Source: Bacteroidaceae bacterium
Lineage (GTDB): Bacteria > Bacteroidota > Bacteroidia > Bacteroidales > Bacteroidaceae
Direction: 5' to 3'
NCBI GenBank assembly: GCA_017642425.1
Contig: JAGCPB010000027.1
Location: forward strand, 1 to 43,119
Length of the DNA: 43,119 nucleotides
Shown here: piece after piece, positions 1,881-17,404 of the stretch
Numbering within the stretch: position 1 is the stretch's first letter
Layout of the letters: each line of letters starts with the position of its first letter
The notes under the pieces: generated by a model
Told to the model about the DNA's origin: nothing
The model's input: the letters and a program-made list of their open reading frames with translations, nothing else
Databases searched by the model: none
Translations under genes and position numbers: made by a program

Positions 1881-1912
1881 AATTCTCAATTTTCAATTCT
1901 CAATTTTTATAG
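1881..1912. repeat. A/T-rich TTGAGAATTGAAAATT repeat, copy 2
   Basis: On the minus strand this reads as ATTGAGAATTGAAAATTG with flanking extension. It encodes the last residues (IKIEN) and stop codon of the HdrA-like gene, so the repeat lies across the end of the coding sequence. Confidence 0.5.
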
Positions 1913-2921
1913 TGTCCAGGTAGTCCTTGATGGCAAGGGCGGCAGAGCGTGCATCGTTGATGGAGTCTGATACGCTCATGGGGCGCTTGCAGGTGCCGGC
2001 AGCGAAGAGGCCTGGTTTACCGGTCTCGTTGTCATAGAGGTGGGGATTGACGGATTTGATAAAGCCGTAGTCTCCACTGATATCACAAGCCTTGCCCAGC
2101 ACCTTTGTGCCGCATGATGCTTCCATGCCCACCATAAGTACCAGCAAGTCTGTATTCATCTTGAGCGGTAGGCCCATCAGTGTATCCTCACTCTTGAGCT
2201 GGACACGGCCATCGAACGTACCGGCTGCTTCCGATATTCGGCCGCGAACAAAACTTACACCGTACTTTTCCTGTGCGGTGCGGTACATCTCCTCAAATCC
2301 CTGACCCCACATACGCAGGTCCATATAGAATACCGATGCCTCACATTTGGGCAGTTGCTTACGGACCTCAATAGCCTGCTTAACGGCGGTAACGCAGCAT
2401 ATCTTGGAGCAGTAATGGTTGCCGCTCTTCTCGTCACGTGAGCCCACGCACTGCAGGAAAGTAACGCGCTTGGGCTCATCGCCATTTGCGTTGAGTATCT
2501 TGCCGTGCTTTATCATCTGCTCCATATCCAGCGATGTGATTACGCCCTTGTATATGCCGTAACCCAACTCCTCCTTGCGGTGAGCGTCAAATACCTGATA
2601 GCCGGTTGCAATAAGCACTGCATCGGCTACGTATGTCTGTTCCTTGGAGTCGACAAGTTTCCATTCTGCACCCTGCCACTTGACATCGGCAATATCAACA
2701 CCGAACGCAGTTGTGATACGATCAGTAAGCAGTTTACCACTCAGGTCATCAATAATCTCCTGTGCCGACTGGAAATTGGGGAACAGGAACGCCTTGTCCT
2801 GAAGGTTCTTGAGCGGAGTCTCTGATTTCTCAAAAAGAGTTACTTCAACACCATTCCTGGCCAGTATTGATGCGGCCTCTATACCGGCGGGGCCGGCTCC
2901 TATAATTGCAACTTTCTTCAT
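1893..2921 (-). CDS. HdrA/QmoA-like FAD oxidoreductase, short form
   Basis: A 342-residue flavoprotein related to the A subunit of heterodisulfide reductase. It opens with the FAD-binding Rossmann motif GAGPAG (residues 8-13). Midway it has the HdrA-family cysteine cluster (CVGSRD, then HYCSKICC), expected to bind a [4Fe-4S] cluster, and it ends with an FAD-contacting AAGTCKRPMSV segment. Methanogen HdrA is about 650 residues with extra ferredoxin domains; this protein is nearer the QmoA core. It is the last gene of the Hdr-like operon, starting one base after the HdrB-like stop codon. In the family HdrA passes electrons from a donor to the HdrC/HdrB chain; donor and acceptor here are unknown. 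Its final codons are formed by an intergenic repeat. Confidence 0.82.
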   Translation of the reverse strand: MKKVAIIGAGPAGIEAASILARNGVEVTLFEKSETPLKNLQDKAFLFPNFQSAQEIIDDLSGKLLTDRITTAFGVDIADVKWQGAEWKLVDSKEQTYVADAVLIATGYQVFDAHRKEELGYGIYKGVITSLDMEQMIKHGKILNANGDEPKRVTFLQCVGSRDEKSGNHYCSKICCVTAVKQAIEVRKQLPKCEASVFYMDLRMWGQGFEEMYRTAQEKYGVSFVRGRISEAAGTFDGRVQLKSEDTLMGLPLKMNTDLLVLMVGMEASCGTKVLGKACDISGDYGFIKSVNPHLYDNETGKPGLFAAGTCKRPMSVSDSINDARSAALAIKDYLDTIKIEN

Positions 2922-2922
2922 A

Positions 2923-3978
2923 TCACACTAACAGGTTTTCGGGTTTCTCAGGGGCACGCAGAATCTTGCCCGATGCGGAATTGTATTTCTGTTTGGGATC
3001 ATACGGGATGCCTATCTTGTCAAGCAGGCGCTCACACTGTACCTGATGTATCTGCAGGCCCAGTTTCCACGGGTCATAACCCAGAAGCAGACCGGCCATC
3101 TCCTCATATGTGAGCACAGGAATGCCGTAACCTTCACGGTCATATGTCTTATGCTCCATCTCGGCAATGGTATATTGCCAACGGTCCAGGAACATAGAGC
3201 AACCGGGACAGTTGGATACAATGAAATCAGGCTCGTACGGCTCCATTGATTCCAGTTTCTTCTTGGTGTTGGAAACTGAATAGCCTCGGTTTTCCTGAAC
3301 CAGGTACTGGCGGAATCCGAATCCGCAGCAGTGGCGGCGCTCGGGATAATCCACCACATGACCGCCCCATGCCTCAATCATACCGGCCAGAACATATGGG
3401 AATTCTGCCTTGCCCACGCCCTTATCAGGGAACAGTTTGGCATAATGGCATCCTATATGCTCAACTACATTCAGAGGCTTGCCTGTAAAACGGTTCACCA
3501 GACGGTATTTCATCTTTTCGGCCAGTTCAAAGCGGTACTTGAAGATAAGGTCCGATGGATGGGCTATGTTCTTGGGCATGTCAAACTCACGTTTGCAGGC
3601 CTTGTAAAGATTCTCACGGGTCTGCTCCAGAAGTTCAGGATGTTCCTGCCACATATGGCACATCTCAGTAAATACTCCGAACGATGTGATGCATGAGGGT
3701 ACCAGATTCTCATAACCGCGCTCGGTCATAAGTGAGAATATACGTGCCACCACAGTCATTGTGGTCTCAAGTGGAACCACATCGGTATGATAGCCTATTC
3801 CGGTGCAGGTATGAAGACGGAAATCATCAAATATATCCTTGCCCAGTTCCTCACTCATTATCTTGAGGAATGCGGTCTCAGATCCCGGGAAGAAGGTCTG
3901 ACGTATGCAGCTGCGCTCATAGTAATAATGATCGTCAGCTATCGTCTTCTGATATTCGTTCCAATAACGGTTTGCCAT
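2923..3978 (-). CDS. HdrB-like CCG-domain iron-sulfur protein
   Basis: A 351-residue protein with two cysteine-rich CCG-type domains, the fold of heterodisulfide reductase subunit B. The C-terminal domain carries the full set: GCHYAK, HCCGFGF and NCPGC. The N-terminal one is reduced (HTCTGIG, PSCITSF), as often seen. In HdrB these cysteines hold noncubane [4Fe-4S] clusters where the disulfide substrate is split; the substrate here is unknown. The frame can be extended to a TTG at 3990 overlapping the upstream stop, but ATG at 3978, nine bases after that stop, is preferred. It lies between the membrane HdrE/D-like gene and the HdrA-like gene. Confidence 0.82.
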   Translation of the reverse strand: MANRYWNEYQKTIADDHYYYERSCIRQTFFPGSETAFLKIMSEELGKDIFDDFRLHTCTGIGYHTDVVPLETTMTVVARIFSLMTERGYENLVPSCITSFGVFTEMCHMWQEHPELLEQTRENLYKACKREFDMPKNIAHPSDLIFKYRFELAEKMKYRLVNRFTGKPLNVVEHIGCHYAKLFPDKGVGKAEFPYVLAGMIEAWGGHVVDYPERRHCCGFGFRQYLVQENRGYSVSNTKKKLESMEPYEPDFIVSNCPGCSMFLDRWQYTIAEMEHKTYDREGYGIPVLTYEEMAGLLLGYDPWKLGLQIHQVQCERLLDKIGIPYDPKQKYNSASGKILRAPEKPENLLV

Positions 3979-3986
3979 AACTAGGT

Positions 3987-5942
3987 TCAATTTATAAGAT
4001 TCTCTGCCACCACCTCGGCTATATCGCGTACAGGATAGTCATTCGTGGCGTGCTGGAACGCTTTCTTACACATAGGGCAAGCGGTAACGATTGCATCGAC
4101 CGGCTTGCTGGTCAGATTCTGGAGCGATGCATTACGGATTGCGGTCTGCTCCTCAAGACTGAGTTTGGTGTTGCCTAAGTTGAATCCACAGCAGACACTC
4201 TTCTCACGCTGGAACCGTGTCTTCTGCAAATTGGTCACAGCGCCCAACACCTCACGAGGCTCATCATATATCCCGCATCCGCGGCCAAGTTCACAAGGAT
4301 CATGGTATGACACCTTGCGGTCATCATGACGTACCTTCAATCTGCCCTGCTTTATCAGCATATCGATATACTCGGTATGGTGCATGATTGGGATATTCAG
4401 ATTATACTCCTTCTTGAATGACTGATAACAGATGGGGCATGATGTGACAAGCATGGTCGAACCTGATTTCTCAATCATCTCTGTATTCTTCTGTCTCAAC
4501 TCCTCAGCCTGCTTAAGGAATCCCTGCTGCTGTAACGGACGTCCGCAGCAAATGGTCCTGAGTTTGTCCATATACCAATACTTCTGACCGGCAGCATTGA
4601 ATATCTTCTCCATAGACTCCGTAATACCGGGAGTAAGATGAGACATACATCCGCCAAAGTATGCCACACGACCTATGGCATTGAACGGAGTCTGCTTCTT
4701 GGCAAGATACTCATAGTTGCCCGTAGTATCAAGCTTTCCCTTGTCACGGGTCATGCGGCGCAATGAACTCAAATCTATTCCTACCGGGCAATCAACCGTG
4801 CATCGGTCACACATCAGACAGTTGTCGGCAATCATTTTTAGACGGCTGACACGTTCCTGGTTACGCAGGCTACGGATCAGATAGACAGACTGTATCTCAT
4901 GATTCTCCAACACCTTGTCCATGGGACAGCCAGATATGCAGACACCGCAGCGTGAACAGGCGTTAAGTTCAAAGTATGTATATCCGGTCTTCTTATCCCC
5001 TTCAGTCACACCTATCTTGCGGAAATAAATCAGCAGCAGTTCCGTAAAGATATGCATGTAACGGGTAAACGGCATGGTCACAAAGAATACTCCCAGCATC
5101 AGTGAGTAGAGCATCCAGACCGATGTCTCCAGACCGCGGACAATCATCGGGTCGAACAGATTACCCACCGCCTGCGTAAAGAATCCTCCGTTGCCGTAAA
5201 GACATGCAGTGACAGACTCTGCCAGCAGACGCATGGGGAATATCATCCAGAGCGAGAACTTGGCAAAACGGTCAACCAGAGTATGCTTGGTGGTGCGGCG
5301 CATTCCCAGGATCTTGGACCAGAATATCTTGACCATGGCCATAGTAAGTCCCAGGAACACATAGAGCAACAAAGCATCCATAAGATCTGAATATGCCTTG
5401 TGCTGACGGAACGATGCCGGTGCTTTATGAACGAAATAGCGATAGAATATGCCTACGTAGAAAGGACGTTTATACTCTATCCTGGCTATTCCGCCTTCTG
5501 TTTCCACACGATATCGACGCTGGTTCAGATATTCAGGATTCTTGTCCTCACCCGTATTATATACATGCCATCCGTTCTGCTGCTGCAACTCGCGTACGTA
5601 CTCTATTGACTGCTCATGCTGCATGGTAAAGAAAGCGTCACGGCTCTCAATGGCTCCAACCACGATAAGCAGGAACCAGCCCAATGCAAATGCCTGGTGC
5701 ATTATGCCAAGCAACAGATTCTTCTTTATGATGCGTACATGTATCAGGCCCTCACGTATCATCTCCCAAATGGCCGGGAAGATCTTCCATGAGTACCAGT
5801 TGCTGCGTATTACCTTACGCTGCTCATCGCTGAATCGCCTTATCCATTTTACATACTTGAAAATGATGATGGCAAACAGCAGCACGGTTCCGATAAGGAA
5901 CGGTATGACAAAGTCATTATATGGATATGCGTGTATCTTCAT
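3987..5942 (-). CDS. membrane HdrE/HdrD-like (DsrMK-like) fusion
   Basis: A 651-residue protein. Residues 1-310 hold several membrane segments (about 12-30, 80-98, 188-207, 274-292) with His residues that could bind heme, as in NarI/DsrM-type quinone-interacting cytochromes. Residues 329-386 hold two [4Fe-4S] motifs (CSRCGVCISGCP, CLMCDRCTVDCP). Residues 430-630 hold two CCG domains (Cys432, Cys465-466, Cys502/505; Cys550, Cys584-585, Cys622/625), as in HdrD, DsrK or GlpC. The whole looks like a DsrM/DsrK or HdrE/HdrD pair in one chain, able to link menaquinone with a cytoplasmic iron-sulfur chain. An extra-membrane insertion lies between about residues 105 and 185. It is the third of five genes; heme binding is inferred. 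Confidence 0.82.
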   Translation of the reverse strand: MKIHAYPYNDFVIPFLIGTVLLFAIIIFKYVKWIRRFSDEQRKVIRSNWYSWKIFPAIWEMIREGLIHVRIIKKNLLLGIMHQAFALGWFLLIVVGAIESRDAFFTMQHEQSIEYVRELQQQNGWHVYNTGEDKNPEYLNQRRYRVETEGGIARIEYKRPFYVGIFYRYFVHKAPASFRQHKAYSDLMDALLLYVFLGLTMAMVKIFWSKILGMRRTTKHTLVDRFAKFSLWMIFPMRLLAESVTACLYGNGGFFTQAVGNLFDPMIVRGLETSVWMLYSLMLGVFFVTMPFTRYMHIFTELLLIYFRKIGVTEGDKKTGYTYFELNACSRCGVCISGCPMDKVLENHEIQSVYLIRSLRNQERVSRLKMIADNCLMCDRCTVDCPVGIDLSSLRRMTRDKGKLDTTGNYEYLAKKQTPFNAIGRVAYFGGCMSHLTPGITESMEKIFNAAGQKYWYMDKLRTICCGRPLQQQGFLKQAEELRQKNTEMIEKSGSTMLVTSCPICYQSFKKEYNLNIPIMHHTEYIDMLIKQGRLKVRHDDRKVSYHDPCELGRGCGIYDEPREVLGAVTNLQKTRFQREKSVCCGFNLGNTKLSLEEQTAIRNASLQNLTSKPVDAIVTACPMCKKAFQHATNDYPVRDIAEVVAENLIN

Positions 5943-5948
5943 CCTGCC

Positions 5949-6284
5949 TTACTTTTCTGTCTCGTCAAGAATCTGACGCATATTGATAATCAGTGAACGG
6001 AGGTTTACTCCACGCGGACAAACCAATGTACATTTGCCGCAGAGCATGCACTTGCGCAACTCCTGGGCAAGTCCGTCATACTCACCACGACGGAAAGAGG
6101 TATGTACACGGCGTATGCTGAAATCAGTGAACTGACGGGCCGAGCATGTGGCGCTGCAGTTTCCGCACTGGAAACAGCGCTTGAAAGACGGCTCAAGTTC
6201 CAGCAACTTGTGGTATTTTTCAAGCGACACCTTGTCCAGATTCTCCTGTCTGGTCTGCTTTAAGGCGAATCCGAAATCAATCAT
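5949..6284 (-). CDS. HdrC-like ferredoxin with two 4Fe-4S sites
   Basis: A 111-residue protein with two motifs, CFQCGNCSATC and CMLCGKCTLVCP, the HdrC pattern of paired [4Fe-4S] clusters. The frame stays open further upstream, but that part lies inside the previous gene. The ATG at 6284, one base after that gene's stop, gives a protein of normal HdrC size. HdrC relays electrons between the A and B subunits. It lies between a second HdrC-like gene and the membrane subunit gene. Confidence 0.82.
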   Translation of the reverse strand: MIDFGFALKQTRQENLDKVSLEKYHKLLELEPSFKRCFQCGNCSATCSARQFTDFSIRRVHTSFRRGEYDGLAQELRKCMLCGKCTLVCPRGVNLRSLIINMRQILDETEK

Positions 6285-6285
6285 C

Positions 6286-6894
6286 CTACTTACCGTTTTT
6301 AACGGCATCATGGAAATCCATTCCGCCTGTAACCTTGAATATGTTGCGCAATTCCTCCATAGTCTCGGGACATATCTCACGCAGTGCACCAGCACCCTTG
6401 CCATGATAGTTAGCTCCGAACTTGGGTGATACCTCCTTAATATTCTTGATATACCATTCCCATGCAGGACCCTGCTCAGGATGTTTCTCGGGTATCACTT
6501 TATCGGGATGGACGCAATAACCTATCTCAAGAATATTGTCTCCTATACCCTCCATTAAAGCAATTTGCTGACGGCCCATGCGACTCTCCTTGTAGTAACC
6601 CATCTCCTGTGAAACCCTTCGCAGAATATTGATGACAGCACCGGGCACATTGCCGCGCGGACAGCGCGGTTTGCATGACATGCACTGTCCGCAATACCAG
6701 ATGGTATCCTCACGCAGCAGTTTCTCCACCTGTTCCTCATCGCCGCGCTGCACGGTATCGCATATACGGCGGGGGTCATAGTCATAGAACTCGGCAGCCG
6801 GGCATATTGCAGTGCAGATGCCACAGTTCATGCATGCTTTGAGCGAGTCCTCATAGCGGACATCTGACCTTATTAAATCAATGAGGTTTCCCAT
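6286..6894 (-). CDS. HdrC-like 4Fe-4S protein with C-terminal extension
   Basis: A 202-residue protein and the first gene of the Hdr-like operon. Residues 21-32 (CMNCGICTAICP) and about 68-78 (CGQCMSCKPRCP) are two [4Fe-4S] sites. The roughly 100 residues after them are an extension absent from minimal HdrC and unassigned. A gene pair encoding two HdrC-like proteins is unusual; the two share cysteine spacing but little else, so they probably fill different positions in the complex. A -7 box at 6915-6922 gives it its own promoter, separate from the VOC gene upstream. Confidence 0.8.
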   Translation of the reverse strand: MGNLIDLIRSDVRYEDSLKACMNCGICTAICPAAEFYDYDPRRICDTVQRGDEEQVEKLLREDTIWYCGQCMSCKPRCPRGNVPGAVINILRRVSQEMGYYKESRMGRQQIALMEGIGDNILEIGYCVHPDKVIPEKHPEQGPAWEWYIKNIKEVSPKFGANYHGKGAGALREICPETMEELRNIFKVTGGMDFHDAVKNGK

Positions 6895-6914
6895 AAGCTG
6901 TTGATTGTTATTTT

Positions 6915-6922
6915 CAAAGTTA
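6915..6922 (-). promoter_or_regulatory. -7 promoter box of the Hdr-like operon
   Basis: The minus strand reads TAACTTTG, an exact TAnnTTTG match. The expected transcript start is near 6908, about 14 bases before the ATG at 6894. No good TTTG lies at the ideal -33 distance. Confidence 0.55.
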
Positions 6923-7004
6923 GGTTATTAGACAAAACAAAAATGACCTATTTTCAACTAATTGACAAATTGTTACAAATAAGTTCACCTTATTTTACGT
7001 CACC

Positions 7005-8084
7005 TCACCTGTCAAACTTCTTACGGTTCATCTTCATGGCGCGGAACAGCAATTTTGAGAGAGGTTTCTCACGGTTGCGGTATACCAGATTGATGTACCA
7101 GCCCAATTTCTTGGCTACCGATATGCGGTATGTCTCCACAAACTCTATAAGCGTGCCGTCCTGATCCTCAATATATGTGAAACGGCCCGATGCATCACCC
7201 ATGGCAAACTGCTTGCCGTCCGGGCAGCTGTCAACCGTAAAGGGATGTCCGTGGTCGGCGCACCACTTGCCAAGAGCATCCATACCGGTCACGTCAAAGC
7301 ATATCTGGATAAATCCGGGATCACCCCAGTAGCGGCCCTCATAAATCTTGCGCGGCTCACGGTCACGGCACTGTACAAGTTCTATCTGGCCCATGGGGAA
7401 TATGGGGGCAAACGGGCCCTTGTTAGGCTTGGAGCACTTTATCAGCACGCGGCGGAATTCACCGTCACCACCGGCCAAAGGAGCCAGGTCATCAAACTTG
7501 CCATACTCGTTATAAACCAGCTGGTCATAGCCCAGGATATCGGAATATACGGTGCGGGCCTTGTCCATATCGGTCACGCCAATCATGCATCCCAGCATTC
7601 CGCCAAACTCCTTACCCTCATCCAGGAGCAGGTAGTCATCCTGAACGGCTTGGAACCAGTTACCCTCAGGGTCGGTTATATAGAATGTCTTGTTTCCATC
7701 AGGTGTGGTAACTACAGGGCTTACCTTATCCCAACGCTCCGATGCGTACTTGTGAGCGTTCTCCACGTTGCGGCACTTGACCTTGGCACAGAATATACCC
7801 AGGTCACCCACCTGTATCTGGAAATCAACCGGTTTGGGCTTACGCTCTGAGTATTGCCAGATCTCAAATCCGCCACCACCCTGCAGGCTTACAGCAATGG
7901 CGGCGTGACGCTTGCGCGGATGACCACCTGTATATGGAAGCATACGCTCAGCCACGGTATCATCCTCCAAGACCCTTATATCTACACCGAACATCTTTAT
8001 GAACCATTTCCATGAGTCATAAACCGATGTGGTACCTACTCCTACCTGCTGTATTCCTGTTATAAAGAAACCGTTATTGTACAT
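7005..8084 (-). CDS. VOC (glyoxalase/dioxygenase fold) protein
   Basis: A 359-residue protein of the vicinal oxygen chelate superfamily. Repeated beta-alpha-beta modules start near residues 8, 95, 160 and 255. Typical phrases are FYITDPEGNWF, GVTDMDKARTVYSDILGY and YIEDQDGTLIEFVE, each with the acidic residue that ends a VOC metal site. The size suggests four modules, as in extradiol or hydroxyphenylpyruvate dioxygenase relatives, but no specific enzyme can be named. A basic tail (about residues 335-359) may touch membrane or nucleic acid. It lies 110 bases upstream of the Hdr-like operon on the same strand, so a linked role is possible, though each has its own promoter. Confidence 0.75.
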   Translation of the reverse strand: MYNNGFFITGIQQVGVGTTSVYDSWKWFIKMFGVDIRVLEDDTVAERMLPYTGGHPRKRHAAIAVSLQGGGGFEIWQYSERKPKPVDFQIQVGDLGIFCAKVKCRNVENAHKYASERWDKVSPVVTTPDGNKTFYITDPEGNWFQAVQDDYLLLDEGKEFGGMLGCMIGVTDMDKARTVYSDILGYDQLVYNEYGKFDDLAPLAGGDGEFRRVLIKCSKPNKGPFAPIFPMGQIELVQCRDREPRKIYEGRYWGDPGFIQICFDVTGMDALGKWCADHGHPFTVDSCPDGKQFAMGDASGRFTYIEDQDGTLIEFVETYRISVAKKLGWYINLVYRNREKPLSKLLFRAMKMNRKKFDR

Positions 8085-8110
8085 ATTTGTCAGTTTTGCC
8101 TATTAAGATG

Positions 8111-8142
8111 CAATATTAGGCATTTTCTGCGGTTTCTGCAAT
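8111..8142 (-). promoter_or_regulatory. promoter of the VOC gene
   Basis: The minus strand reads ATTG-N20-TAATATTG. The -7 box differs from TAnnTTTG at one base and the spacing is ideal. Transcription would start near 8105, about 20 bases before the ATG at 8084. Confidence 0.5.
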
Positions 8143-8214
8143 CCGCATCAACTCAAAAAGCCCCGTCTGAACAAAAAAAACACAGTACATTCCGGCATAT
8201 TGAGCAAATATGAT

Positions 8215-8222
8215 TACTTTCG
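8215..8222 (+). promoter_or_regulatory. possible -7 box of tatA-tatC
   Basis: TACTTTCG is one base off TAnnTTTG and lies 33 bases before the tatA ATG. No clear -33 element is visible. It is the best candidate in the divergent 8085-8255 gap. Confidence 0.35.
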
Positions 8223-8255
8223 CACATTACAGCAAATCAAAACAAACCAAACGCA

Positions 8256-8489
8256 ATGAAACTTTATCCGCTTTTACTCGGACTTGGAACCGGTGAGATA
8301 ATACTTATAGTTCTTGTATTCCTGCTTTTGTTCGGAGCAAAGCGCATTCCTGAACTCATGAAAAGCATGGGCAAGGGTGTAAAGAGCTTCAAGGAGGGCA
8401 TGAAAGATGTCGAAAAAGAGATCAATGCCCCCGATGAACCCGCAAAAGAGACCACTAAGGAACCTGAGAAGGAGCCTGAATCAAAGTAA
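8256..8489 (+). CDS. tatA: twin-arginine translocase subunit TatA/E
   Basis: A 77-residue protein with the TatA layout. A short N-terminal membrane helix (about residues 12-27) is followed by the LFGAKRIPELM hinge, an amphipathic helix (KSMGKGVKSFKEGMKDV) and a charged Glu/Lys/Pro tail. TatA forms the variable pore through which folded proteins with twin-arginine signals cross the inner membrane. Bacteroidetes often have one TatA and no separate TatB. The tatC gene follows after 15 bases, giving a minimal TatA-TatC system. The ATG at 8256 places the helix where the family expects it. Confidence 0.93.
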   Translation: MKLYPLLLGLGTGEIILIVLVFLLLFGAKRIPELMKSMGKGVKSFKEGMKDVEKEINAPDEPAKETTKEPEKEPESK

Positions 8490-8504
8490 TCCGTTATTTT
8501 AGTC

Positions 8505-9293
8505 ATGGCTGCCCATCAAGACAAGCCAATGACATTCTGGGACCATCTGGACGCTCTCCGGAATGTCATTCTTCGCATACTCGCCGTAGCGGTAGTGGGA
8601 TTCATTGTCGCATTCTGTTTCAAGGAGACTTTATTCCGGCTGATTCTGGCCCCAAGCAGTCCTGATTTCATACTCTACCGTTGGATTACAGCTGTAGCCG
8701 GCGCTATGGGCATAGATGCTTCAGCATTGCAGGATTTCAATGTTGACATGTTCAGCACCACCCTTACCGCCCAGTTCATGATTCACATGAAAATGGCTTT
8801 CTACGTAAGTCTGGTTGTTATAATGCCATATACGCTCTATGCCCTGTTCGGGTTCGTATCGCCCGCCCTGCATCAGAATGAGCGTCAAGGTTCTACCAAG
8901 GTAATAATCTGGTCCTACATCCTTTTCATGGTGGGAATAATACTGGACTACCTTATTATATTCCCCCTTGCTTTCCGTTTTCTGGGCACATATCAGGTAA
9001 GCTCAAGCATACCCAACGTGATTACATTGGAATCCTACACAGACCTGCTCATCACACTTACCCTTCTTATGGGCATTCTTTTTGAACTGCCCATCCTGGC
9101 ATGGTTCTTAAGCAGGATGGGAATAATAGACGCCGCCTTTATGAAGCGTTACCGCCGCCACGCAATAGTGGTAATTCTGATAATCGCTGCAATTATAACG
9201 CCAACAACTGATATATTCACTCTTACAATAGTAACCCTGCCCATCTACCTTCTATATGAGCTGAGCATAGCGATAGTTCGCAAACCAACGTGA
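8505..9293 (+). CDS. tatC: Sec-independent protein translocase TatC
   Basis: A 262-residue polytopic membrane protein. It starts with the TatC signature around MTFWDHLDALRNVI (residues 9-22), which recognises twin-arginine signal peptides, and has about six hydrophobic segments. The conserved FGFVSPALHQNER region (about residues 115-127) and the segment near ITLTLLMGILFELP are typical. Compared with E. coli TatC it has a longer first periplasmic loop (about residues 48-85). It is co-transcribed with tatA and ends before a strong terminator shared with the minus-strand SusD-fusion gene. Confidence 0.93.
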   Translation: MAAHQDKPMTFWDHLDALRNVILRILAVAVVGFIVAFCFKETLFRLILAPSSPDFILYRWITAVAGAMGIDASALQDFNVDMFSTTLTAQFMIHMKMAFYVSLVVIMPYTLYALFGFVSPALHQNERQGSTKVIIWSYILFMVGIILDYLIIFPLAFRFLGTYQVSSSIPNVITLESYTDLLITLTLLMGILFELPILAWFLSRMGIIDAAFMKRYRRHAIVVILIIAAIITPTTDIFTLTIVTLPIYLLYELSIAIVRKPT

Positions 9294-9350: not shown

Positions 9351-12300
9351 TCAGTTTGCCGTTGCCTCTATAAAGTTATCACCTTTAAGCGATGAAACCT
9401 TTTTTCCGGCAGACGGAGCTCCTTCCCTCTGCCGGGCGGCGGCACGGGCAGGTGCCCAACCCATGGAATAAGGCTCCAAATATACCTGACCTTCTGACCA
9501 GTCTAAATATCCCAAACTGTTACCTTCACTGTCTGCTGCCCAGAAGCCAAAGGCAACCTCTGAATCAGAAGTATTTGTCTTGGCAAAACCGTTTGATGTG
9601 CAATAGAATGTCAACACATTAGAATCTATTGGCCTCAAATATATATAATATGTTCCGCCATAAAGACCTAAATACTGAATGTCTTTTATCACCAATGTAC
9701 CTTCCACCTCATCAAACTCAGCCTCAATCTCACTTCCATCAAACAACAGGTCCCTGATAATCAATGAAGAGGATTCACCTTCAACAATTGAACAGGTAAG
9801 TGTATCCATTGAAGTTGATGAAGTATCACGAGCACTATGGTAAATGAACATATAAGAGCCGGTCATCATATCCGGGGTTATACCTGATGTATAATCATCA
9901 ACCGGCTCCGGAGCATTAGCCTCGGGGTTATTGTCATTCTCGGATATAAGAGGATTTGTCTTTATCTCAGAAACAGGGATTCTCCACAAAAGGATATCGC
10001 TTCCGGCAGGAATATTGAATACCAGATGGCTTTCATAACCTGCTCCGCGACGGTCAACATCCTTGCCCAGTCTCATGATGTCAAACCATGAAAGACCTTC
10101 TCCCCAGAATTCAATCCTACGCTGTCTCCATATTTCATCCTGCAGTTCAGTTCCGGTCACATCGGGACATGTGTAATATGTATCTCTATATCTTCTTACA
10201 AAAGATTCAAGAACCGATTTGGCCGATGCGGCATCACCGCTCATTGCCATTCCTTCGGCCAGAATCAGATACATCTCCTCTATACGCATCAGAGGTATAT
10301 CATTGGCATTGGTATCTGTTCCAAGTTCATTTAAGTAAGGAGCGAACTTGACCTGGGTGTACGCTTTGTAACCGGCATTATAAAGATGATTCAGTTCTTC
10401 CAGACTGAGATTTGGAGAATAGCGGTTTGCATCAATCCACCATCCCTTACGGACATCGGTGCCGCTTATTGAATTAAAGAGAGCCTTACTGATCTGACGT
10501 CCACCGTTAACCTCGCAGTATCCGTAATTGAACGAACCCATGTGAGACGGATAGTTCACAAGACCGGATAGAACCACATCATCATCCTCGTTAATGATTA
10601 TTCCCCACATCCAGTCCGGTTCATCGGCGGTCCAGAAAGCAGGACGTGAAGCCTCGGCCATTGTAGAGGGACGTGCGTCGGATGCATCGATGGCAGCCTG
10701 TGCATCAGCCGCAGCCTCATTCCACAATCCCATTGTCAGGTTGACTCTTGCTCTCAATCCGTAAGCCACCGCAACGTCAAAATGATTCTTGTCTGAACGC
10801 GTCAAACCGGATTTTTTTGCAGAAGCCAATAAGCCGATGGCATTATTGAGGTCACTCTGTATCTGTGCATAAACCTCCGCCACAGTAGCCCTGGGGCAAC
10901 CATTCACAATGGCATCTTCTGCATTACGCTCTGTAATAAGAGGTACGCAAGGCTTGTTCTCGTTGCCTGCATAGTTGAACTGGAACAACTGAGCCAGATT
11001 CCAGTAACTGAATGCTCTCAAGGCAAGCATCTGGCCAAGGTTATACATATCAGCAGGCTTATCGCTATCGTAGCCGATCCTATCGATCATACTGTTGCTT
11101 GATGTAATCAGCACATACAGGTTGTTCCACAAAACCTTTGGTGCAGCGTAAGCATTGTTCCTGTCAAGCAGGCCGAGGCTTGTGCTAAACCAGTTATAAC
11201 CAACGTCTGTCTGAACTTCATCCATACCGTTTGCATCGGTGAACATCATGACTGAAGGATAGCCAAAATCATCAGCCCTGTTACCCAGAGCTTTCATCTT
11301 GGCAAAGACCTCATCAACCAGCATGTCTGTCGTCTTCTCAAAGACCGTTATCCTGCAACTAGCCTCAAAGCCATTGTATCTGGCTGTGATCGTTGCTGTT
11401 CCTATGGTAGAGAATGTTATCACATTTCCATACTCATCAACCTGAGCCACATCAGGATTGTCAGAACTCCAGACCACATCTGTCATATCCGCCATGAATG
11501 AATAATCCTCACTGCCACTCATAAAGTAGCACCCGATAGATATTGAATTATCTGTTGAAACAGACACCGTGTCATACTCCAGTCTTATTGAAGTTATTCC
11601 CGGCCATTTGTCTGACGGGCAAACCGGACGGACGGAGAATCCGTACTTCCTTGAGAAAGAAGACATCCCATAGTAATCTTCTCCCTCACCAAAATAGAAT
11701 CCATATGCGCCTGTAGGATTATTCCGGTACAATGAGTTGGTCCAATAATAACCATAATAGTCCTTATCTGAAACACCGTCTCCTTCTACAAACACTCCGG
11801 CTGCCGGCAGGAATATTGAACGGTCAGTATAGCCGTCCACATTACTTGTAACCTTATATCCCGGCACTCCGTTTATCTCAACCCACTCCCAGGAGCACAG
11901 GAACAACAACTCATATGATTCCAGGTAAGTTGGCATACGCCAGTCTCCTGCCCATGTTACAGATGCAACATCGTCTTTTGTCTCAAGGACAAGCTTATTG
12001 TCAGGCACGCCAAATAAACCATTGCTTATGTCAGTCACATATTTTGAGAACTGTGCATAACCCGTAGAATCATAACCTGTAAAGAACCGGTAGTTCTCCA
12101 TTGCGTAATCGGGAGTAACCTCTACAGAGCCCCACGAATAATAATCACCAGCCATGTCCGGCCTGTAAGCACCCACATTGAAAGTAGCCCAATTCACGCT
12201 TAAGCCCAGATCAACATACTCGGGAGTTACGTCGGCCGGATTAACTACAGTAACCTGACATGAAACAGTCTTGTTTTCATAGATGGCCGTAATGGTGCAT

Positions 12301-14114
12301 TTACCCTCACCAAGAGCATATAATTCACCGTTCCACACAAAAGCCACGCTGTCATTGCTTGACATCCACTCTATGTCTTTCAGATTCACAGTCCTGCCGC
12401 TTGCAGTCATACCCTTGACGTCCAGTGTACAGCTTTCGCCAATAACCAGTTTCAGTTCTGTTTTGTCTATTACAAGGACATCCACATCGGGTGAAACAAA
12501 GGATTTGACAGGACGGATGGTGCGGCCCTGAACACGATAATGGTGCCATATTGAAACCTCGCCATCACCATCAAAGTACAGATATTGGGATTTATCATCA
12601 TTATCCGATAACCATGAGGTCCAATAGTACGCACAGTAACCTTGATCATATGGATATGAGCCGGAATTGAATCCAGATGCAGGCAAGAAGATGGAGTTGC
12701 CTTCATAACCTTTCACCAGACTGGTTACCTCATAACCTTCAACACCATCTCTGATTACCCAATTCCAATTACAGTTCTCCATAAGTTCCTCGAACTCATT
12801 GGGAGTAGGCATTCTCCAGTCATCTCCCCATAGCTCATGAGCAGCGTCATCCTCCAGATCCAATACTATCTTGCCATCCGCTTTACCGTTGGTAGCGTCA
12901 GAGGTGTATTTGGTATAGACACCTGATGCATAATCGAACCATTTGTATGTGCTGTATTCGTATATTGCCTTGGGCCTGGTCTCACCCCAGGCATAATAGA
13001 AACCGTATTTTTCGGGAGAATCGGCACCTAAGTTACAGGTAGCCCACATAACGCTCAATCCCAGATCGACAGGTTCGGCCACAATCTCAGGCTCAAGAAC
13101 TGTTACTACACATTCTGAGGTAAATTCACCAACCTTTGCTATAACCGTCGCGGTTCCGGGAGCGATAGCCTCAATCTGATACCGGTGCATTCTCAGGCAT
13201 GCATCACCTGTAATTGTGATTACGGGCTCCACCCAGAAACTGCACCATATTTCAGGATTAAAGGAATGATACTCACCCAAAGACAATGTCACAGACTCCT
13301 CATTCAGACTGAAACCGTAAACTTCGGCTATGTTTTCGGGCGTATCGGAAGAATAGACAGGACGTATCAGTTCTCCGAACATACGCCCTTCGGCAGAAAT
13401 TTCAACAAACTCTGAACTAAAATCTATTCCGTAGGCATGACCGTTATAATTAGGATTCAGTGAAGCTGAAAGGTAACTGGTACAAGTACCGCCAATACCG
13501 GCCTGACTGTCATCTCTGTAATCTCCCGACGGCAGGAATATGCTGTTGCCGTTAGGGCCGGTAACCGTATAGCCGGTCAATGTGGAATCTATGACAGTCC
13601 ACCGCCATTTGCAGTTATAGACCAGTTCCTCCATCTCCTGGACGGTAGGCATACGCCAGTCACTACCCCAGTTGACCCGGGCGGCATCATCCTCCATGTC
13701 CAGTCCGTGCTTATAATCCACAGCCCCGTAATCAGTCCAATAGTTGTATTTGGTGAATCCGTTCAGGATTGAAGGATTATAATACTTGTAGTTTTCACGT
13801 GTATACGTATCCTTAGTCTCCGTCTCACCCCAAGAGTAATAGTCACCTGCATCATAGGGACTTGTGGCACCGATGTTGCAGTTTGCCCACATCACGCTCA
13901 GACCTAAGTCCACATACTCCACGCCTTGAACAGGAGCCTTCTCATAAGAGAATTTCACACTGTCTACATCAGTGACAAGAAACTTGACTTTCTTTCCGTC
14001 TTTCTGATAGACATTGATATAATATGCCTGCGCTGAGGCTGACAATGTGCCAACCACCAGCAAAATAAGGGCGGCAAAACCCTTCAATGTATGAAATGAT
14101 GAAACGCGTCTCAT
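9351..14114 (-). CDS. giant secreted repeat/Ig-like/SusD fusion protein
   Basis: A 1587-residue protein with a signal peptide (residues 1-30, cleavage near SAQA) and no lipobox cysteine. Three copies of a FISUMP-like domain follow at about 67-253, 348-536 and 632-831. Each carries VDLGLSV, YYxWG, WRMPT, SIFLP and a final RPV, and each is followed by a bacterial Ig-like (Big2-type) domain (265-340, 545-624, 840-925). Residues 928-1400 form a SusD/RagB-like domain, with LWNNLYVLITSSN, LALRAFSYWNLAQLF, RIEEMYLILAE and RRIEFWGEGLSWFDIMRLGK. A beta-rich tail follows (about 1408-1550). SusD proteins are normally about 550-residue lipoproteins next to SusC; neither holds here. The start overlaps the preceding gene by ATGA. 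Surface glycan binding is inferred. Confidence 0.85.
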   Translation of the reverse strand: MRRVSSFHTLKGFAALILLVVGTLSASAQAYYINVYQKDGKKVKFLVTDVDSVKFSYEKAPVQGVEYVDLGLSVMWANCNIGATSPYDAGDYYSWGETETKDTYTRENYKYYNPSILNGFTKYNYWTDYGAVDYKHGLDMEDDAARVNWGSDWRMPTVQEMEELVYNCKWRWTVIDSTLTGYTVTGPNGNSIFLPSGDYRDDSQAGIGGTCTSYLSASLNPNYNGHAYGIDFSSEFVEISAEGRMFGELIRPVYSSDTPENIAEVYGFSLNEESVTLSLGEYHSFNPEIWCSFWVEPVITITGDACLRMHRYQIEAIAPGTATVIAKVGEFTSECVVTVLEPEIVAEPVDLGLSVMWATCNLGADSPEKYGFYYAWGETRPKAIYEYSTYKWFDYASGVYTKYTSDATNGKADGKIVLDLEDDAAHELWGDDWRMPTPNEFEELMENCNWNWVIRDGVEGYEVTSLVKGYEGNSIFLPASGFNSGSYPYDQGYCAYYWTSWLSDNDDKSQYLYFDGDGEVSIWHHYRVQGRTIRPVKSFVSPDVDVLVIDKTELKLVIGESCTLDVKGMTASGRTVNLKDIEWMSSNDSVAFVWNGELYALGEGKCTITAIYENKTVSCQVTVVNPADVTPEYVDLGLSVNWATFNVGAYRPDMAGDYYSWGSVEVTPDYAMENYRFFTGYDSTGYAQFSKYVTDISNGLFGVPDNKLVLETKDDVASVTWAGDWRMPTYLESYELLFLCSWEWVEINGVPGYKVTSNVDGYTDRSIFLPAAGVFVEGDGVSDKDYYGYYWTNSLYRNNPTGAYGFYFGEGEDYYGMSSFSRKYGFSVRPVCPSDKWPGITSIRLEYDTVSVSTDNSISIGCYFMSGSEDYSFMADMTDVVWSSDNPDVAQVDEYGNVITFSTIGTATITARYNGFEASCRITVFEKTTDMLVDEVFAKMKALGNRADDFGYPSVMMFTDANGMDEVQTDVGYNWFSTSLGLLDRNNAYAAPKVLWNNLYVLITSSNSMIDRIGYDSDKPADMYNLGQMLALRAFSYWNLAQLFQFNYAGNENKPCVPLITERNAEDAIVNGCPRATVAEVYAQIQSDLNNAIGLLASAKKSGLTRSDKNHFDVAVAYGLRARVNLTMGLWNEAAADAQAAIDASDARPSTMAEASRPAFWTADEPDWMWGIIINEDDDVVLSGLVNYPSHMGSFNYGYCEVNGGRQISKALFNSISGTDVRKGWWIDANRYSPNLSLEELNHLYNAGYKAYTQVKFAPYLNELGTDTNANDIPLMRIEEMYLILAEGMAMSGDAASAKSVLESFVRRYRDTYYTCPDVTGTELQDEIWRQRRIEFWGEGLSWFDIMRLGKDVDRRGAGYESHLVFNIPAGSDILLWRIPVSEIKTNPLISENDNNPEANAPEPVDDYTSGITPDMMTGSYMFIYHSARDTSSTSMDTLTCSIVEGESSSLIIRDLLFDGSEIEAEFDEVEGTLVIKDIQYLGLYGGTYYIYLRPIDSNVLTFYCTSNGFAKTNTSDSEVAFGFWAADSEGNSLGYLDWSEGQVYLEPYSMGWAPARAAARQREGAPSAGKKVSSLKGDNFIEATAN

Positions 14115-14599
14115 TGTTTCTGGATTTTAACTGTTAGGTCTTCGGAACTGATAATGTAAATGCCGTCAGGCAGTTCAGCGATGCTGAATGAAAGCGACCC
14201 CTCCTTGTCTGTCTTGTATGAACCCACAACCTTGCCGTCCGAAGCAATCAGGCGAACGGCCATTTCAGCCTTGGCTCCGTCTATGCTCACGTTGTATTCA
14301 TCAACGGAGAATGTCACTTTACGTACATCATCCTTGATTTCATCAACATCGGTCGGGCCCGGAATATCCTTTGCGCTGAATGTAAACTTGGTCAGTTTGG
14401 CCAGAGGATATGTTATTCTCAGACCATTTGCAGTTGTCAGGACGACATCAGTCTCAGTGAATGTCACGACAGGCTGATATTTGAATGCAAAATCAATGAG
14501 ACTACCATCCTTAAGATGAATAGTCATCACTTCTTCAGAAAACAAAGCCATTGGCGCAGCCATCAGCAACGCCAGGGCAGCAATCAGGAATTTTCTCAT
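14111..14599 (-). CDS. small secreted beta-rich protein, T9SS-tail-like C-terminus
   Basis: A 162-residue exported protein of unknown function. Residues 1-21 are a signal peptide. The next part (MTIHLKDGSLIDFAF, then a KLTKFTF segment) resembles a short beta-module at the start of the giant downstream protein (INVYQKDGKKVKF to DSVKFSY). The C-terminal 75 residues match the look of a type A sorting domain of the type IX secretion system: a VRLIASDGKVV strand, then LPDGIYIIS and a final VKIQKQ. It shares an ATGA overlap with the giant gene, so the two are translationally coupled and probably act together at the cell surface. A clear promoter lies upstream. Confidence 0.7.
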   Translation of the reverse strand: MRKFLIAALALLMAAPMALFSEEVMTIHLKDGSLIDFAFKYQPVVTFTETDVVLTTANGLRITYPLAKLTKFTFSAKDIPGPTDVDEIKDDVRKVTFSVDEYNVSIDGAKAEMAVRLIASDGKVVGSYKTDKEGSLSFSIAELPDGIYIISSEDLTVKIQKQ

Positions 14600-14698: not shown

Positions 14699-17404
14699 TT
14701 ATTTCATCCGCCACCAGTCAAAGGCAAACATATCCTTTTCAGCTCCTGTGAACACAAAATAGAGATCATGTACTCCACGTATACGACGCTTGAATTTTTT
14801 GGTGAACTTCCTGAATTCCGTCTTTCCGCCGGTAGGCGTCACTGAAATCAGTGCCTGCAACGGTCCGTCAGGACTGTCCAGACGCACTTCCATACATCCT
14901 ATTCCGTCTGAGCCTATTGACGCGATTATCTTCCTGGCCCCCTTGCCGCCAAAGTCAACACCGCGCAACAATATGTATTCACCATTGTCGATATCGTGTA
15001 CATACATGTTTCTGGGCTTATATCCCACTGCATCATCAAAATCGAACTCAGTATCCAGATAACTTGTCTTGAGTCCATACCCCCATGCCATTGTCTCGGC
15101 CTCCACACGGTGATCCGGATATTCAGGACCGCGACGGTACGGATCAAACGGTTTCAACTGCTCCACCACATTGTCCAGGAAATAGGGAACCTCCTGAATG
15201 GTACCATCCGGATTGTAATGCATCTCTGCCACCGAAACGGAACGCTGCTCCGCATGAGCGAATGTCTTTAGGTGCATTATGTCATAGTTCAACCCGAACA
15301 CATAGCTTCTACCTTTGTACTCTATGATACCCGGATGGTTGCCACGCGTACGGACGGTATGGTCCATTATATGTCCTTTGTACTCCCACGGCCCTTCCGG
15401 ACTGTCACTCATGGCATAACCTATACCCTCAGGGCAGCAGGTGGATGCAAACGCCATGTAATAGTGTCCGTCATGTTTCCAGAACCATGGGCCCTCCTGA
15501 TAATCCTCTATCTTGGGATGTTTCATGATTGGACCTGCCAGTGAAACCATATCCTTGCCCAGCTTTACGGAGTAGAGCTCCGGGTTACCCCAGTACATAT
15601 AGGCCTGGCCGTCATCATCAATCCAGACAGTGGGGTCTATGTCATTCCAATGCTCTTTCTGCCATACCAGAGGCTCTCCCAGAGGATCACGGAACGGACC
15701 GTAAGGAGAATCTGATGTAAGCACCCCTATGCCGTGTCCGTGAATCGGACAGTACATATAATAAGCGCCGTTGGCTTCAACCACCTGTTCTGCCCACGCA
15801 CCGTTCCTGCCGTCAAAGTACTTAAAGTCATCAAGCGATGCCACCGGGCCATAATCCTGCCAGTTGACCATATCATCCGATGTATACAGCAGCCAGTCAA
15901 ACATCTGGAAACCGCGCGCACCGTCCTCATCGTGAGTGGTGTAAAGGAACACCTTGCCGTCAATTACAACAGGTGCGGGATCGGCAGTGAAACGGGTCTG
16001 TACAACCGGCATGTTCGCATGGGCGTTGAACTGCCACCAGTCAAGAGTGAAAGGTTCAGGCGTCTCGCAACGGAATACCAGATATACATCGTGCACGCCC
16101 GTAATGTTCGTATCAATCAGATATGTGAATGCTGCTGTGCGGAAACCGGCATTGTCAGTGTTTACGGGGACCTTGCAGAAAGGTTCACCCTCCATCTTGT
16201 CAGTATAGAACTCTATGGTTCCCTTGCCCTTCTGCTCACCTACCACAACTACTACAGCCTTCTGACCGCAAGTCTTGAAATCAACTGAGCGTACCCGGAT
16301 CCAGTCACCATCGCTTATGTCAGTCACAAAATGGTCCTTGCCGCCACGACGGTCAACCTTGAGTCCGCGTGACTCGGCCTGTGTCTCAGCCTCTACACGT
16401 GTATATGGATCCAGATTCTTTATGGGAGTTATTACACCCTCCTTTGTAAACGGAATGAACGGGAATGAGCCGTCGGCATTCCACTTGAACTCCTCCACGC
16501 AGGCAGAGCGGTTGTAACCGCCGCCACCGGGCAGTCCGCCGTTATGATAGAACATAAAGTCACGGCCCTTGAACGTTATGTTTCCGCCATGAATGGTAAA
16601 GCTGTTCTCAGCCTCATCCATGATACGGCCGCGATAGGTCCACGGTCCGTTTATGGTAGGAGCTGTAGAGTAAGCCATGTGTTCCGGAACACCGCCGGCG
16701 GGATATGACAGGATATATGTGCCGTTGCGCTTCATGAGCCACGGACCCTCCTCATACTGGGTCATCATCTCATTCTGCCCCTTTGCCCAGTTCATCTTAG
16801 ACTGGAGTTCGCCAAAACACTCGGGATCGTGATAGCCCGGAACCTCTTGCCAGCCGTTCTTGAATGATACCATATCATCATTCAGTTCACCGTACCAGAG
16901 ACCCTTGTTTCCCCAGAACAGATAAGCACGACCGTCATCATCGACAAAAACTGTAGGATCTATGAATCCGAAACCTTCGGCCAGAGGTCCGCCTATGCCG
17001 TCGGTCCACGGTCCCTGCGGGTCATCGGCTACAGCAACGGCCAGAGCGTCACCGCCGTTGGCCTTGTTGCAGCATACGTACCAGTACCACTTGCCGTTAC
17101 GCTCCACACCCTGGCTGGCCCAGGCGCGCTGTCCCTGACGGGCCCACTTGAAAACTGAAGTAGTTACCTGGGTTCCCAGATAGGTCCAGTTCACCATATC
17201 CTCGGTGCTGAACAGCGCCCAGTCCTTCATATTGAAGTCACGGTTACGTCCGTCCTCATCATGGTCAACAAACAGATATACCTTGTCACCATGCACGAAC
17301 GGTGCAGGGTCAGGTGTGTACATTGTACTGATTATAGGATTCTGGGCAAAAACCAGAACAGGCAATGCTGCCGTCAAGGTCAGTAATGATTTTAAGGTTT
17401 TCAT
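14699..17404 (-). CDS. tandem GH43-CBM6-GH43-CBM6 glycoside hydrolase
   Basis: A 901-residue secreted enzyme: signal peptide (1-20), GH43 (22-330), CBM6-like (335-460), GH43 (468-755), CBM6-like (765-898). Each GH43 five-bladed propeller keeps its triad: Asp32, Asp149 and Glu219 in the first (PDPAP, IDPTVF, EGPW), Asp475, Asp590 and Glu637 in the second. Both CBM6-like parts start with RVEAET and end with DWW. GH43 enzymes remove arabinose or xylose from plant polysaccharides; which linkage is cut cannot be read from sequence. The halves have diverged clearly, so this is an old duplication or a fusion of two paralogues. It starts 12 bases after maf, apparently in the same operon. Confidence 0.88.
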   Translation of the reverse strand: MKTLKSLLTLTAALPVLVFAQNPIISTMYTPDPAPFVHGDKVYLFVDHDEDGRNRDFNMKDWALFSTEDMVNWTYLGTQVTTSVFKWARQGQRAWASQGVERNGKWYWYVCCNKANGGDALAVAVADDPQGPWTDGIGGPLAEGFGFIDPTVFVDDDGRAYLFWGNKGLWYGELNDDMVSFKNGWQEVPGYHDPECFGELQSKMNWAKGQNEMMTQYEEGPWLMKRNGTYILSYPAGGVPEHMAYSTAPTINGPWTYRGRIMDEAENSFTIHGGNITFKGRDFMFYHNGGLPGGGGYNRSACVEEFKWNADGSFPFIPFTKEGVITPIKNLDPYTRVEAETQAESRGLKVDRRGGKDHFVTDISDGDWIRVRSVDFKTCGQKAVVVVVGEQKGKGTIEFYTDKMEGEPFCKVPVNTDNAGFRTAAFTYLIDTNITGVHDVYLVFRCETPEPFTLDWWQFNAHANMPVVQTRFTADPAPVVIDGKVFLYTTHDEDGARGFQMFDWLLYTSDDMVNWQDYGPVASLDDFKYFDGRNGAWAEQVVEANGAYYMYCPIHGHGIGVLTSDSPYGPFRDPLGEPLVWQKEHWNDIDPTVWIDDDGQAYMYWGNPELYSVKLGKDMVSLAGPIMKHPKIEDYQEGPWFWKHDGHYYMAFASTCCPEGIGYAMSDSPEGPWEYKGHIMDHTVRTRGNHPGIIEYKGRSYVFGLNYDIMHLKTFAHAEQRSVSVAEMHYNPDGTIQEVPYFLDNVVEQLKPFDPYRRGPEYPDHRVEAETMAWGYGLKTSYLDTEFDFDDAVGYKPRNMYVHDIDNGEYILLRGVDFGGKGARKIIASIGSDGIGCMEVRLDSPDGPLQALISVTPTGGKTEFRKFTKKFKRRIRGVHDLYFVFTGAEKDMFAFDWWRMK

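Follow-up and report, generated by a model that had tools for sequence, protein, structure and literature searches.

Introduction

SusD is the known partner of SusC, and some of its relatives, among them RagB, serve peptides (PDB entry 6sln, judged by its title, RagAB). SprA is the translocon of the T9SS. According to the accessible part of PMC10202324, T9SS substrates are recruited via a conserved CTD, and the secretion of other proteins is promoted when the CTD is fused to them. In a rumen Bacteroidales whose genome lacks SusC/SusD loci, CAZymes are reportedly exported by T9SS CTDs carried in cis (PMC5831590, excerpted text), and two small CTD proteins, PorA of P. gingivalis and Fjoh_0547, are able to exit the cell independently of the translocon and to fulfil functions of their own, as stated in the available portion of PMC7712824. 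Here we describe a locus in a 43,119-nt stretch of Bacteroidaceae DNA, hereafter the window, in which a small secreted protein with a CTD-like end and a large SusD-containing protein are encoded by two overlapping genes.

Results

A 1587-residue secreted protein with a complete SusD domain

The second gene of the two-gene cassette (9351..14114, minus strand), as delimited by its ORF, its translation and Pfam matches, encodes a multidomain secreted protein of 1587 aa with an ATG start and no internal stop, as a sequence-only reading of the window had claimed. The signal peptide (14025..14114), read from the translation, is of type I character (...TLSASAQA) and has no lipobox; that is, residues 1-60 contain no Cys at all, and the lipobox typical of the SusD/RagB family is absent, again as first read. 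A short N-terminal strand motif, 'KDG' (13935..14024), resembles one in the small protein according to hhalign. It is followed by three FISUMP/Lcl_C-like domains alternating with three Ig-like domains, all on the minus strand: FISUMP/Lcl_C-like domain 1 (13335..13919, residues 66-260; Pfam and relatives), Ig-like domain 1 (13089..13322, about residues 265-342), FISUMP/Lcl_C-like domain 2 (12495..13079, about residues 346-540; Pfam and NCBIfam), Ig-like domain 2 (12234..12482, about residues 545-627; placed by repeat order and the two Big_2 stretches), FISUMP/Lcl_C-like domain 3 (11610..12221, about residues 632-835; Pfam and relatives) and, immediately ahead of the SusD domain, Ig-like domain 3 (11343..11603, about residues 838-924), where the best Big_2 stretch (875-911) and strands of the structure model are located.

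The motifs VDLGLSV, WRMPT and SIFLP each occur three times in the translation, and the Pfam model Lcl_C matches three stretches (56.8 bits, cut-off 34.9), in agreement with the three FISUMP-like domains proposed earlier. 'FISUMP-like' is the right term for these repeats because the NCBIfam FISUMP model, TIGR02145, reaches 21.4 bits and thus falls under its cut-off of 41.65. Of the three Ig-like domains counted earlier, two stretches are covered by Big_2 (50.4 bits, cut-off 22.8), whereas for domain 1 the one match is to Big-like, at 22.5 bits, under the cut-off of 27.

The SusD domain is complete (9885..11309, minus strand, about residues 936-1410). SusD-like_3 matches residues 984-1126 (52.4 bits, cut-off 27) and SusD_RagB residues 1248-1393 (47.0 bits, cut-off 23.1), so that both family models are found within residues 928-1400, the region in which a full SusD-like domain had been read. 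By sequence, PDB matches include 3snx (95 bits, covering residues 994-1172 and 1269-1358) and 3lew (89 bits across residues 948-1355). In an AlphaFold2 model of residues 835-1587 the pLDDT is mostly 75-98 over the SusD part and lower at model residues 135-145, 354-357 and 363-370, and a Foldseek search with this model retrieved 3snx with an E value of 1.4e-24 and a TM score of 0.80 by target, i.e. the SusD fold.

Behind the SusD domain the model bears out the predicted beta tail (9471..9884, minus strand, about residues 1411-1548), which resembles DUF4984 below cut-off. The C-terminal stretch with the stop codon (9351..9470, minus strand) has low confidence (pLDDT <50) and no CTD. A CTD located within the beta tail was also considered and ruled out, as no T9SS C-terminal model matched the large protein at E 0.05.

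The fusion recurs in the genus and its SusD part is under selection

Among the 37 genomes of the genus searched, FISUMP-SusD fusions with the same domain order were found in five further ones (G024, G029, G033, G034 and G035), where the proteins measure 854 to 2003 residues and carry from 1 to about 5 FISUMP domains; the beta tail is present in G024 and G033 and missing in G029, G034 and G035. All six fusions, that of the window included, directly follow a small gene. The window's genome is a draft (87% complete, 114 contigs), and the fusion could in principle be an assembly join or a mis-called frame; since it recurs in five other genomes, this explanation was rejected as hardly credible.

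In the six fusions the homology to SusD sets in near the first helix, past the segment that bears the lipid anchor, and both the lipid Cys and the N-terminal segment are lacking. The window SusD is 56-61% identical to the SusC-paired SusDs of G029 and G034. Over the SusD part, dN/dS is 0.24 between G024 and G034 (dN 0.020, dS 0.083), and it is 0.13 between the window and G024 and 0.15 between the window and G033, at dS values of 1.4 and 1.2, respectively, which are near saturation. The SusD part is therefore under purifying selection. One could imagine that it is an inert structural spacer or a decaying passenger, given that the related cassettes of G006 and G009 manage without a SusD. The low dN/dS values (0.13 to 0.24) and the repeated capture of SusD described below speak against this idea, which we consider very unlikely.

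The SusD-less cassettes of G006 (L049:7829-9943) and G009 (L050:13742-14947) have the same flanking genes and a large partner with FISUMP/Ig repeats, in which C-terminal regions with a Pfam match to Big_2 only, or to nothing, take the place of SusD.

Origin of the fused SusD

A tree was computed for 41 SusD domains, which were classed as 'lone' or 'fused' by ORF length, with L080, cut by a contig end, counted as fused. The window clade (window, G024, G034, G033 and G029; 100/97) has as its sister group the SusC-adjoining lipoprotein SusDs of G029 and G034 (98/94). In G035, the fused SusD and the SusC-paired SusD of the same genome are sisters (100/100), even though the cassette of this genome shares its flanking genes with the SusD-less ones of G006 and G009. 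Genus g30 contributes a BACON-SusD clade (100/100), whose sister group consists of lone SusDs from g30 and g21. Less certain is the placement of another g30 type and of the g11/g13 proteins, which lie on long branches. All lone SusDs in the tree have a Cys at residues 15-35, the truncated L080 (counted as fused) aside, whereas among the fused proteins L043 alone has one in this range, inside its signal peptide and in no usual lipobox. Judging from this topology, SusD was captured into the cassette slot several times from SusC-paired lipoproteins.

The most elaborate protein encountered was L076:6043-13149 (G215:C17), a secreted protein of 2368 residues with two SusD, SusF_SusE and BACON domains, i.e. 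a near-whole Sus surface set in one chain. It is encoded behind a small CTD gene, and the stretch read contained no SusC-like ORF.

No SusC-like ORF in the fused loci read

No SusC-like ORF was detected within the 43-kb window by phmmer with one SusC query at E 1e-10; on this search rest both the dismissal of a nearby SusC partner and our agreement with the earlier statement that no SusC gene lies close by. With the same program, SusC-like ORFs were found in 10 of 10 lone-SusD loci with long flanks (L044-L048 and L084-L088; the 16 short-flank lone loci L060-L075 were set aside) vs 0 of 15 fused loci, some of which are short. Among further SusD contigs of the window's own genome, a SusC-like ORF accompanies L051, L053 and L054, and none was seen on the short contigs L052 and L055. 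On contig C12 of G276, the fused gene and a SusC are about 15 kb apart, the latter outside the part that was read, and near the fused gene of L083 a 933-aa ORF (6399-9200) starts like a TonB receptor on reading, with no SusC match at 1e-10.

These data bear on the possibility that the fused SusD serves, as a lid in trans, a SusC encoded elsewhere. The genome does hold at least 26 matches to TIGR04056 (SusC), one of which, on C53, adjoins a lone SusD 41% identical to the fused one. Against such a role stand the loss, in all six genus fusions, of the lipid Cys and N-terminal segment that the SusC-paired relatives possess, and the distribution of SusC between fused and long-flank lone loci, and we regard it as improbable. 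A SusD independent of SusC, as postulated in the sequence-only reading, is supported by the genomic context. In that reading, the repeats may form a long stalk that holds a glycan-binding domain away from the membrane.

Neighbouring genes and the possible ligand

Directly upstream of the cassette lies a gene for a GH43-GH43-CBM6 protein (14699..17404, minus strand), which adjoins the cassette in three of eight syntenic loci (window, L089 and L090) and is probably not part of it. The encoded protein, which is xylosidase/arabinofuranosidase-like, combines a CBM6 with two GH43 domains, matched in the PDB at residues 21-349 and 462-748. On the other side, positions 1893-9293 of the window hold an Hdr-like cluster (FAD oxidoreductase, CCG/4Fe-4S proteins and a glyoxalase-like protein) and TatC. 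In the syntenic loci, this cluster with TatC neighbours the cassette at about 84-98% identity, although the edge at which the cassette is located varies.

Because of the GH43-GH43-CBM6 enzyme upstream in three of the eight syntenic loci, a glycan ligand of the fused SusD is plausible. Against it count that some SusD relatives (RagAB) have peptides as their substrates and that the nearest SusC-paired relatives lie among housekeeping-type genes, as judged by eye from ORF lists. The donor locus gave no hint of the substrate: no glycoside hydrolase or other CAZyme was evident, by eye, in the ORF lists around L044-L046 and L048. These four loci (L044, L045, L046 and L048, on G034:C21, G029:C3, G000:C53 and G035:C12, respectively) are SusC/SusD pairs with divergent SusDs in a common housekeeping-type neighbourhood with similar ORF starts, and SprA is encoded on the same contig, about 13-24 kb away.

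The small first gene encodes a CTD-like protein

The first gene of the cassette (14111..14599, minus strand) overlaps the large gene (9351..14114, minus strand) by 4 bases and encodes a secreted protein of 162 aa made up of a signal peptide, a 'KDG' beta-domain and a C-terminal Ig-like domain. Its C-terminal half resembles a T9SS type A CTD. The structure model shows a seven-strand C-terminal sandwich at residues 95-161 (pLDDT about 88-97), and in a Foldseek search the T9SS CTDs of RgpB (7pq4) and RemA (8gl6) ranked first and second, with two further CTD entries at ranks 16 (5hfs) and 25 (8qb1). All four matches have a probability of 1.00 and E values of 0.011 to 0.052, and the search returned no match at E 0.001 or better. 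The list is not exclusive to CTDs, as the DUF3244 proteins 3sd2 and 4g5a also reach probability 1.00 and unrelated proteins are present in the top ten. TIGR04183 scores 17.4 bits on the window protein, against a cut-off of 23, and reaches or exceeds this cut-off on the small proteins of G024 (23.0 bits) and G215 (25.4 bits). In 48 small-protein sequences K158 is invariant and K161 is conserved in at least 90%; this C-terminal Lys motif fits motif E, a feature that the accessible part of PMC10202324 ascribes to type A CTDs. The window protein ends in KIQKQ, and the majority of its relatives in the genus in KILKK or similar.

The N-termini of the small and large proteins align with each other at 95.5% probability in hhalign, over a stretch that takes in part of the signal peptides. 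C10 peptidase partners, introduced below, do not have the KDG motif, and the motif therefore cannot be a universal dock.

A two-gene cassette conserved across the family

Within the genus, 24 of the 37 genomes matched a profile of the small protein at 1e-15. Across the family, with up to 12 candidates scored in each genome, at least 172 of 301 genomes matched at 1e-10, distributed over at least 17 of 30 genera. Fifty-five small genes were read in context, 13 of them picked for SusD, two (L049 and L050) for a FISUMP match and 40 by the small gene alone. By a set rule, 50 have a downstream ORF, and 49 of these ORFs have at least 120 residues. An overlap of exactly 4 bases joins the small to the large gene in 45 of the 49 pairs, compared with 25 of 357 other same-strand neighbour pairs of the same loci. 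In the 40 loci selected by the small gene alone, the 4-base overlap occurs in 32, while five have no downstream ORF by the set rule and three show another spacing.

The partners include FISUMP/Big_2 arrays, SusD fusions, C10 peptidases, one transglutaminase-like and one calycin-like protein, and some have no Pfam match at 0.001. A lipobox-like pattern is present in two of the 49 partners and is doubtful in both. The sequence-only reading, whose fused SusD without a SusC in the window is supported here, had overlooked the CTD-like small gene, the conserved cassette and the repeated capture of SusD.

The window's genome contains a second cassette (G000:C37:85813-86277, L103), in which a small CTD gene is followed by a Big_2 partner of 1264 residues with a below-cut-off VWA match. 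At G000:C53:177275-178980, a weaker small-gene match in a 137-aa frame precedes a 770-aa frame with similarity to FISUMP, and this is perhaps a third cassette of that genome.

CTDs in cis or on the small partner, and co-occurrence with SprA

No T9SS C-terminal model matched, at E 0.05, any of the 44 cassette partners scanned, which included five C10 peptidases; these 44 of the 49 partners, several of them represented by their C-terminal parts, are all except L082, L083, L100, L101 and L130. Likewise, a CTD HMM built from the small proteins had no match in the 49 partners, the large window protein included. C10 peptidases not preceded by a small gene provided a comparison. The sample comprised 80 loci, namely the top match from each of the 78 different genomes listed first and two lower matches (G257 and G104), to which L084 was added, and hence consists of high-scoring loci. 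It yielded 102 C10 ORFs, of which six have a small gene upstream, three are cut at the 3' end and one is short, leaving 92; some of these are cut at the 5' end, and 80 have at least 600 nt of readable upstream sequence. Among these best matches listed, TIGR04183 was detected in cis in 50 of the 92 (E 0.05, 130-residue tails), and for the other 42 no CTD and no small gene was detected. Thus one and the same type of enzyme may bear its own CTD in cis or follow a CTD gene; the two were never seen together. A regular expression for CTD ends, used initially, was too loose, matching 76 of the 92 and yet also four of five cassette C10 proteins, and was replaced by TIGR04183. The five C10 (streptopain-type) peptidases with a complete 3' end that are encoded behind a small CTD gene and have no CTD of their own are L119, L120, L121, L124 and L126; L119 and L120, the two C10 partners scanned with Pfam, contain BspA-type leucine-rich repeats.

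SprA is encoded in the window's own genome. Among the matches listed, 165 of the 172 genomes that contain the small gene also encode SprA, vs 67 of the 129 without it (Fisher p 3.7e-20, uncorrected for kinship), and all 17 genera with the small gene belong to the 21 in which SprA occurs. In seven genomes the small gene is accompanied by no SprA match; six of them are 74-82% complete, and the seventh, G046, rated complete, goes against the rule.

It could be argued that the cassette is real, and that the small CTD protein is nonetheless a separate T9SS cargo, a chaperone or a sensor, the large protein being periplasmic or reaching the surface in some other way. Small CTD proteins with their own roles are indeed known, e.g. 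PorA (PMC7712824, accessible portion), and the KDG motif is absent from the C10 partners. Yet the small gene and the 4-base overlap persist although the payloads vary widely, and a CTD of their own was found in none of the 44 payloads scanned as against a cis CTD in 50 of the 92 non-cassette C10 peptidases (best matches listed). We consider such separate roles rather less likely than not.

Discussion

Short of proof, the evidence favours a split T9SS cargo. Our best reading, to which we give about an even chance, is that a SusC-free SusD is displayed on the cell surface through a CTD-bearing partner. In this reading, the SusD domain stems from a SusC-paired lipoprotein of the same lineage and was taken up into the large member of a two-gene surface cassette. 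The small gene would supply a secreted protein ending in a T9SS CTD-like domain, and the large gene, coupled to it by the 4-base overlap, a payload with a signal peptide and with neither CTD nor lipid anchor. Both proteins would cross the inner membrane via Sec and might associate in the periplasm, perhaps via the KDG strand motif that their N-termini have in common. Next, the CTD partner would take the complex to the translocon of the T9SS and, after being sorted, keep the payload on the cell surface, where the FISUMP/Ig array and the SusD could act together as a modular protein for binding or adhesion, to a ligand or a neighbouring cell, with SusC import not involved. More tentatively, and with somewhat less than an even chance of being right, we suggest that this applies family-wide: a stand-alone CTD protein, encoded by an overlapping gene, would export and anchor in trans large payloads devoid of their own signal for the system, and SusD, in one genome as two SusD domains along with SusF_SusE domains, would repeatedly have changed from a lid of SusC into a SusC-free surface binder.

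If true, repeated and selected SusC-free SusDs in secreted modular proteins would amount to a second life of the fold. The arrangement suggests that bacteria can hang SusD modules on their surface without an outer-membrane pore. If the CTD can indeed reside on a separate, coupled protein, searches for T9SS cargo based on CTDs would miss whole classes of surface proteins. The cassette offers a ready test of whether a T9SS signal acts in trans.

Comparison with known systems

In the open-licence literature, as far as the sources were accessible, we found no published description of this arrangement. Compared with the SusD/RagB lipoproteins (PF07980 and PF14322; e.g. BT_1439, 3snx), the window protein shares the complete SusD fold, with both Pfam halves over cut-off, but it lacks the lipobox, the N-terminal segment and an adjoining SusC, and its SusD follows a series of FISUMP/Ig repeats, the whole protein having roughly three times the length. 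The FISUMP/Lcl_C-Big_2 array proteins of the genus have, in the loci read, the same repeat modules and the same sort of small upstream gene; unlike the window protein they are devoid of SusD, e.g. in G006 and G009.

With T9SS type A cargo (TIGR04183) the locus has in common a signal peptide, surface-type modules, a CTD-like end on the partner and SprA in the genome; here, however, the CTD-like domain is carried by a separate small polypeptide instead of the payload. PorA of P. gingivalis (246 aa, with a FimH-like N-terminal domain and a CTD) is likewise small, with one N-terminal domain and a CTD, but its homologues are reported only in Porphyromonas, it has a role in PorXY-SigP signalling, and a coupled large partner is not mentioned in the accessible portion of PMC7712824. 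Type B cargo with clustered PorP/SprF is similar in that a surface protein and a dedicated partner are encoded together; there, in contrast to the cassette, the partner is a member of the PorP/SprF family, and a type B CTD is present on the cargo itself (PMC10202324, as far as the text is available). The arrangement joins elements of known kinds, the SusD fold and the T9SS CTD.
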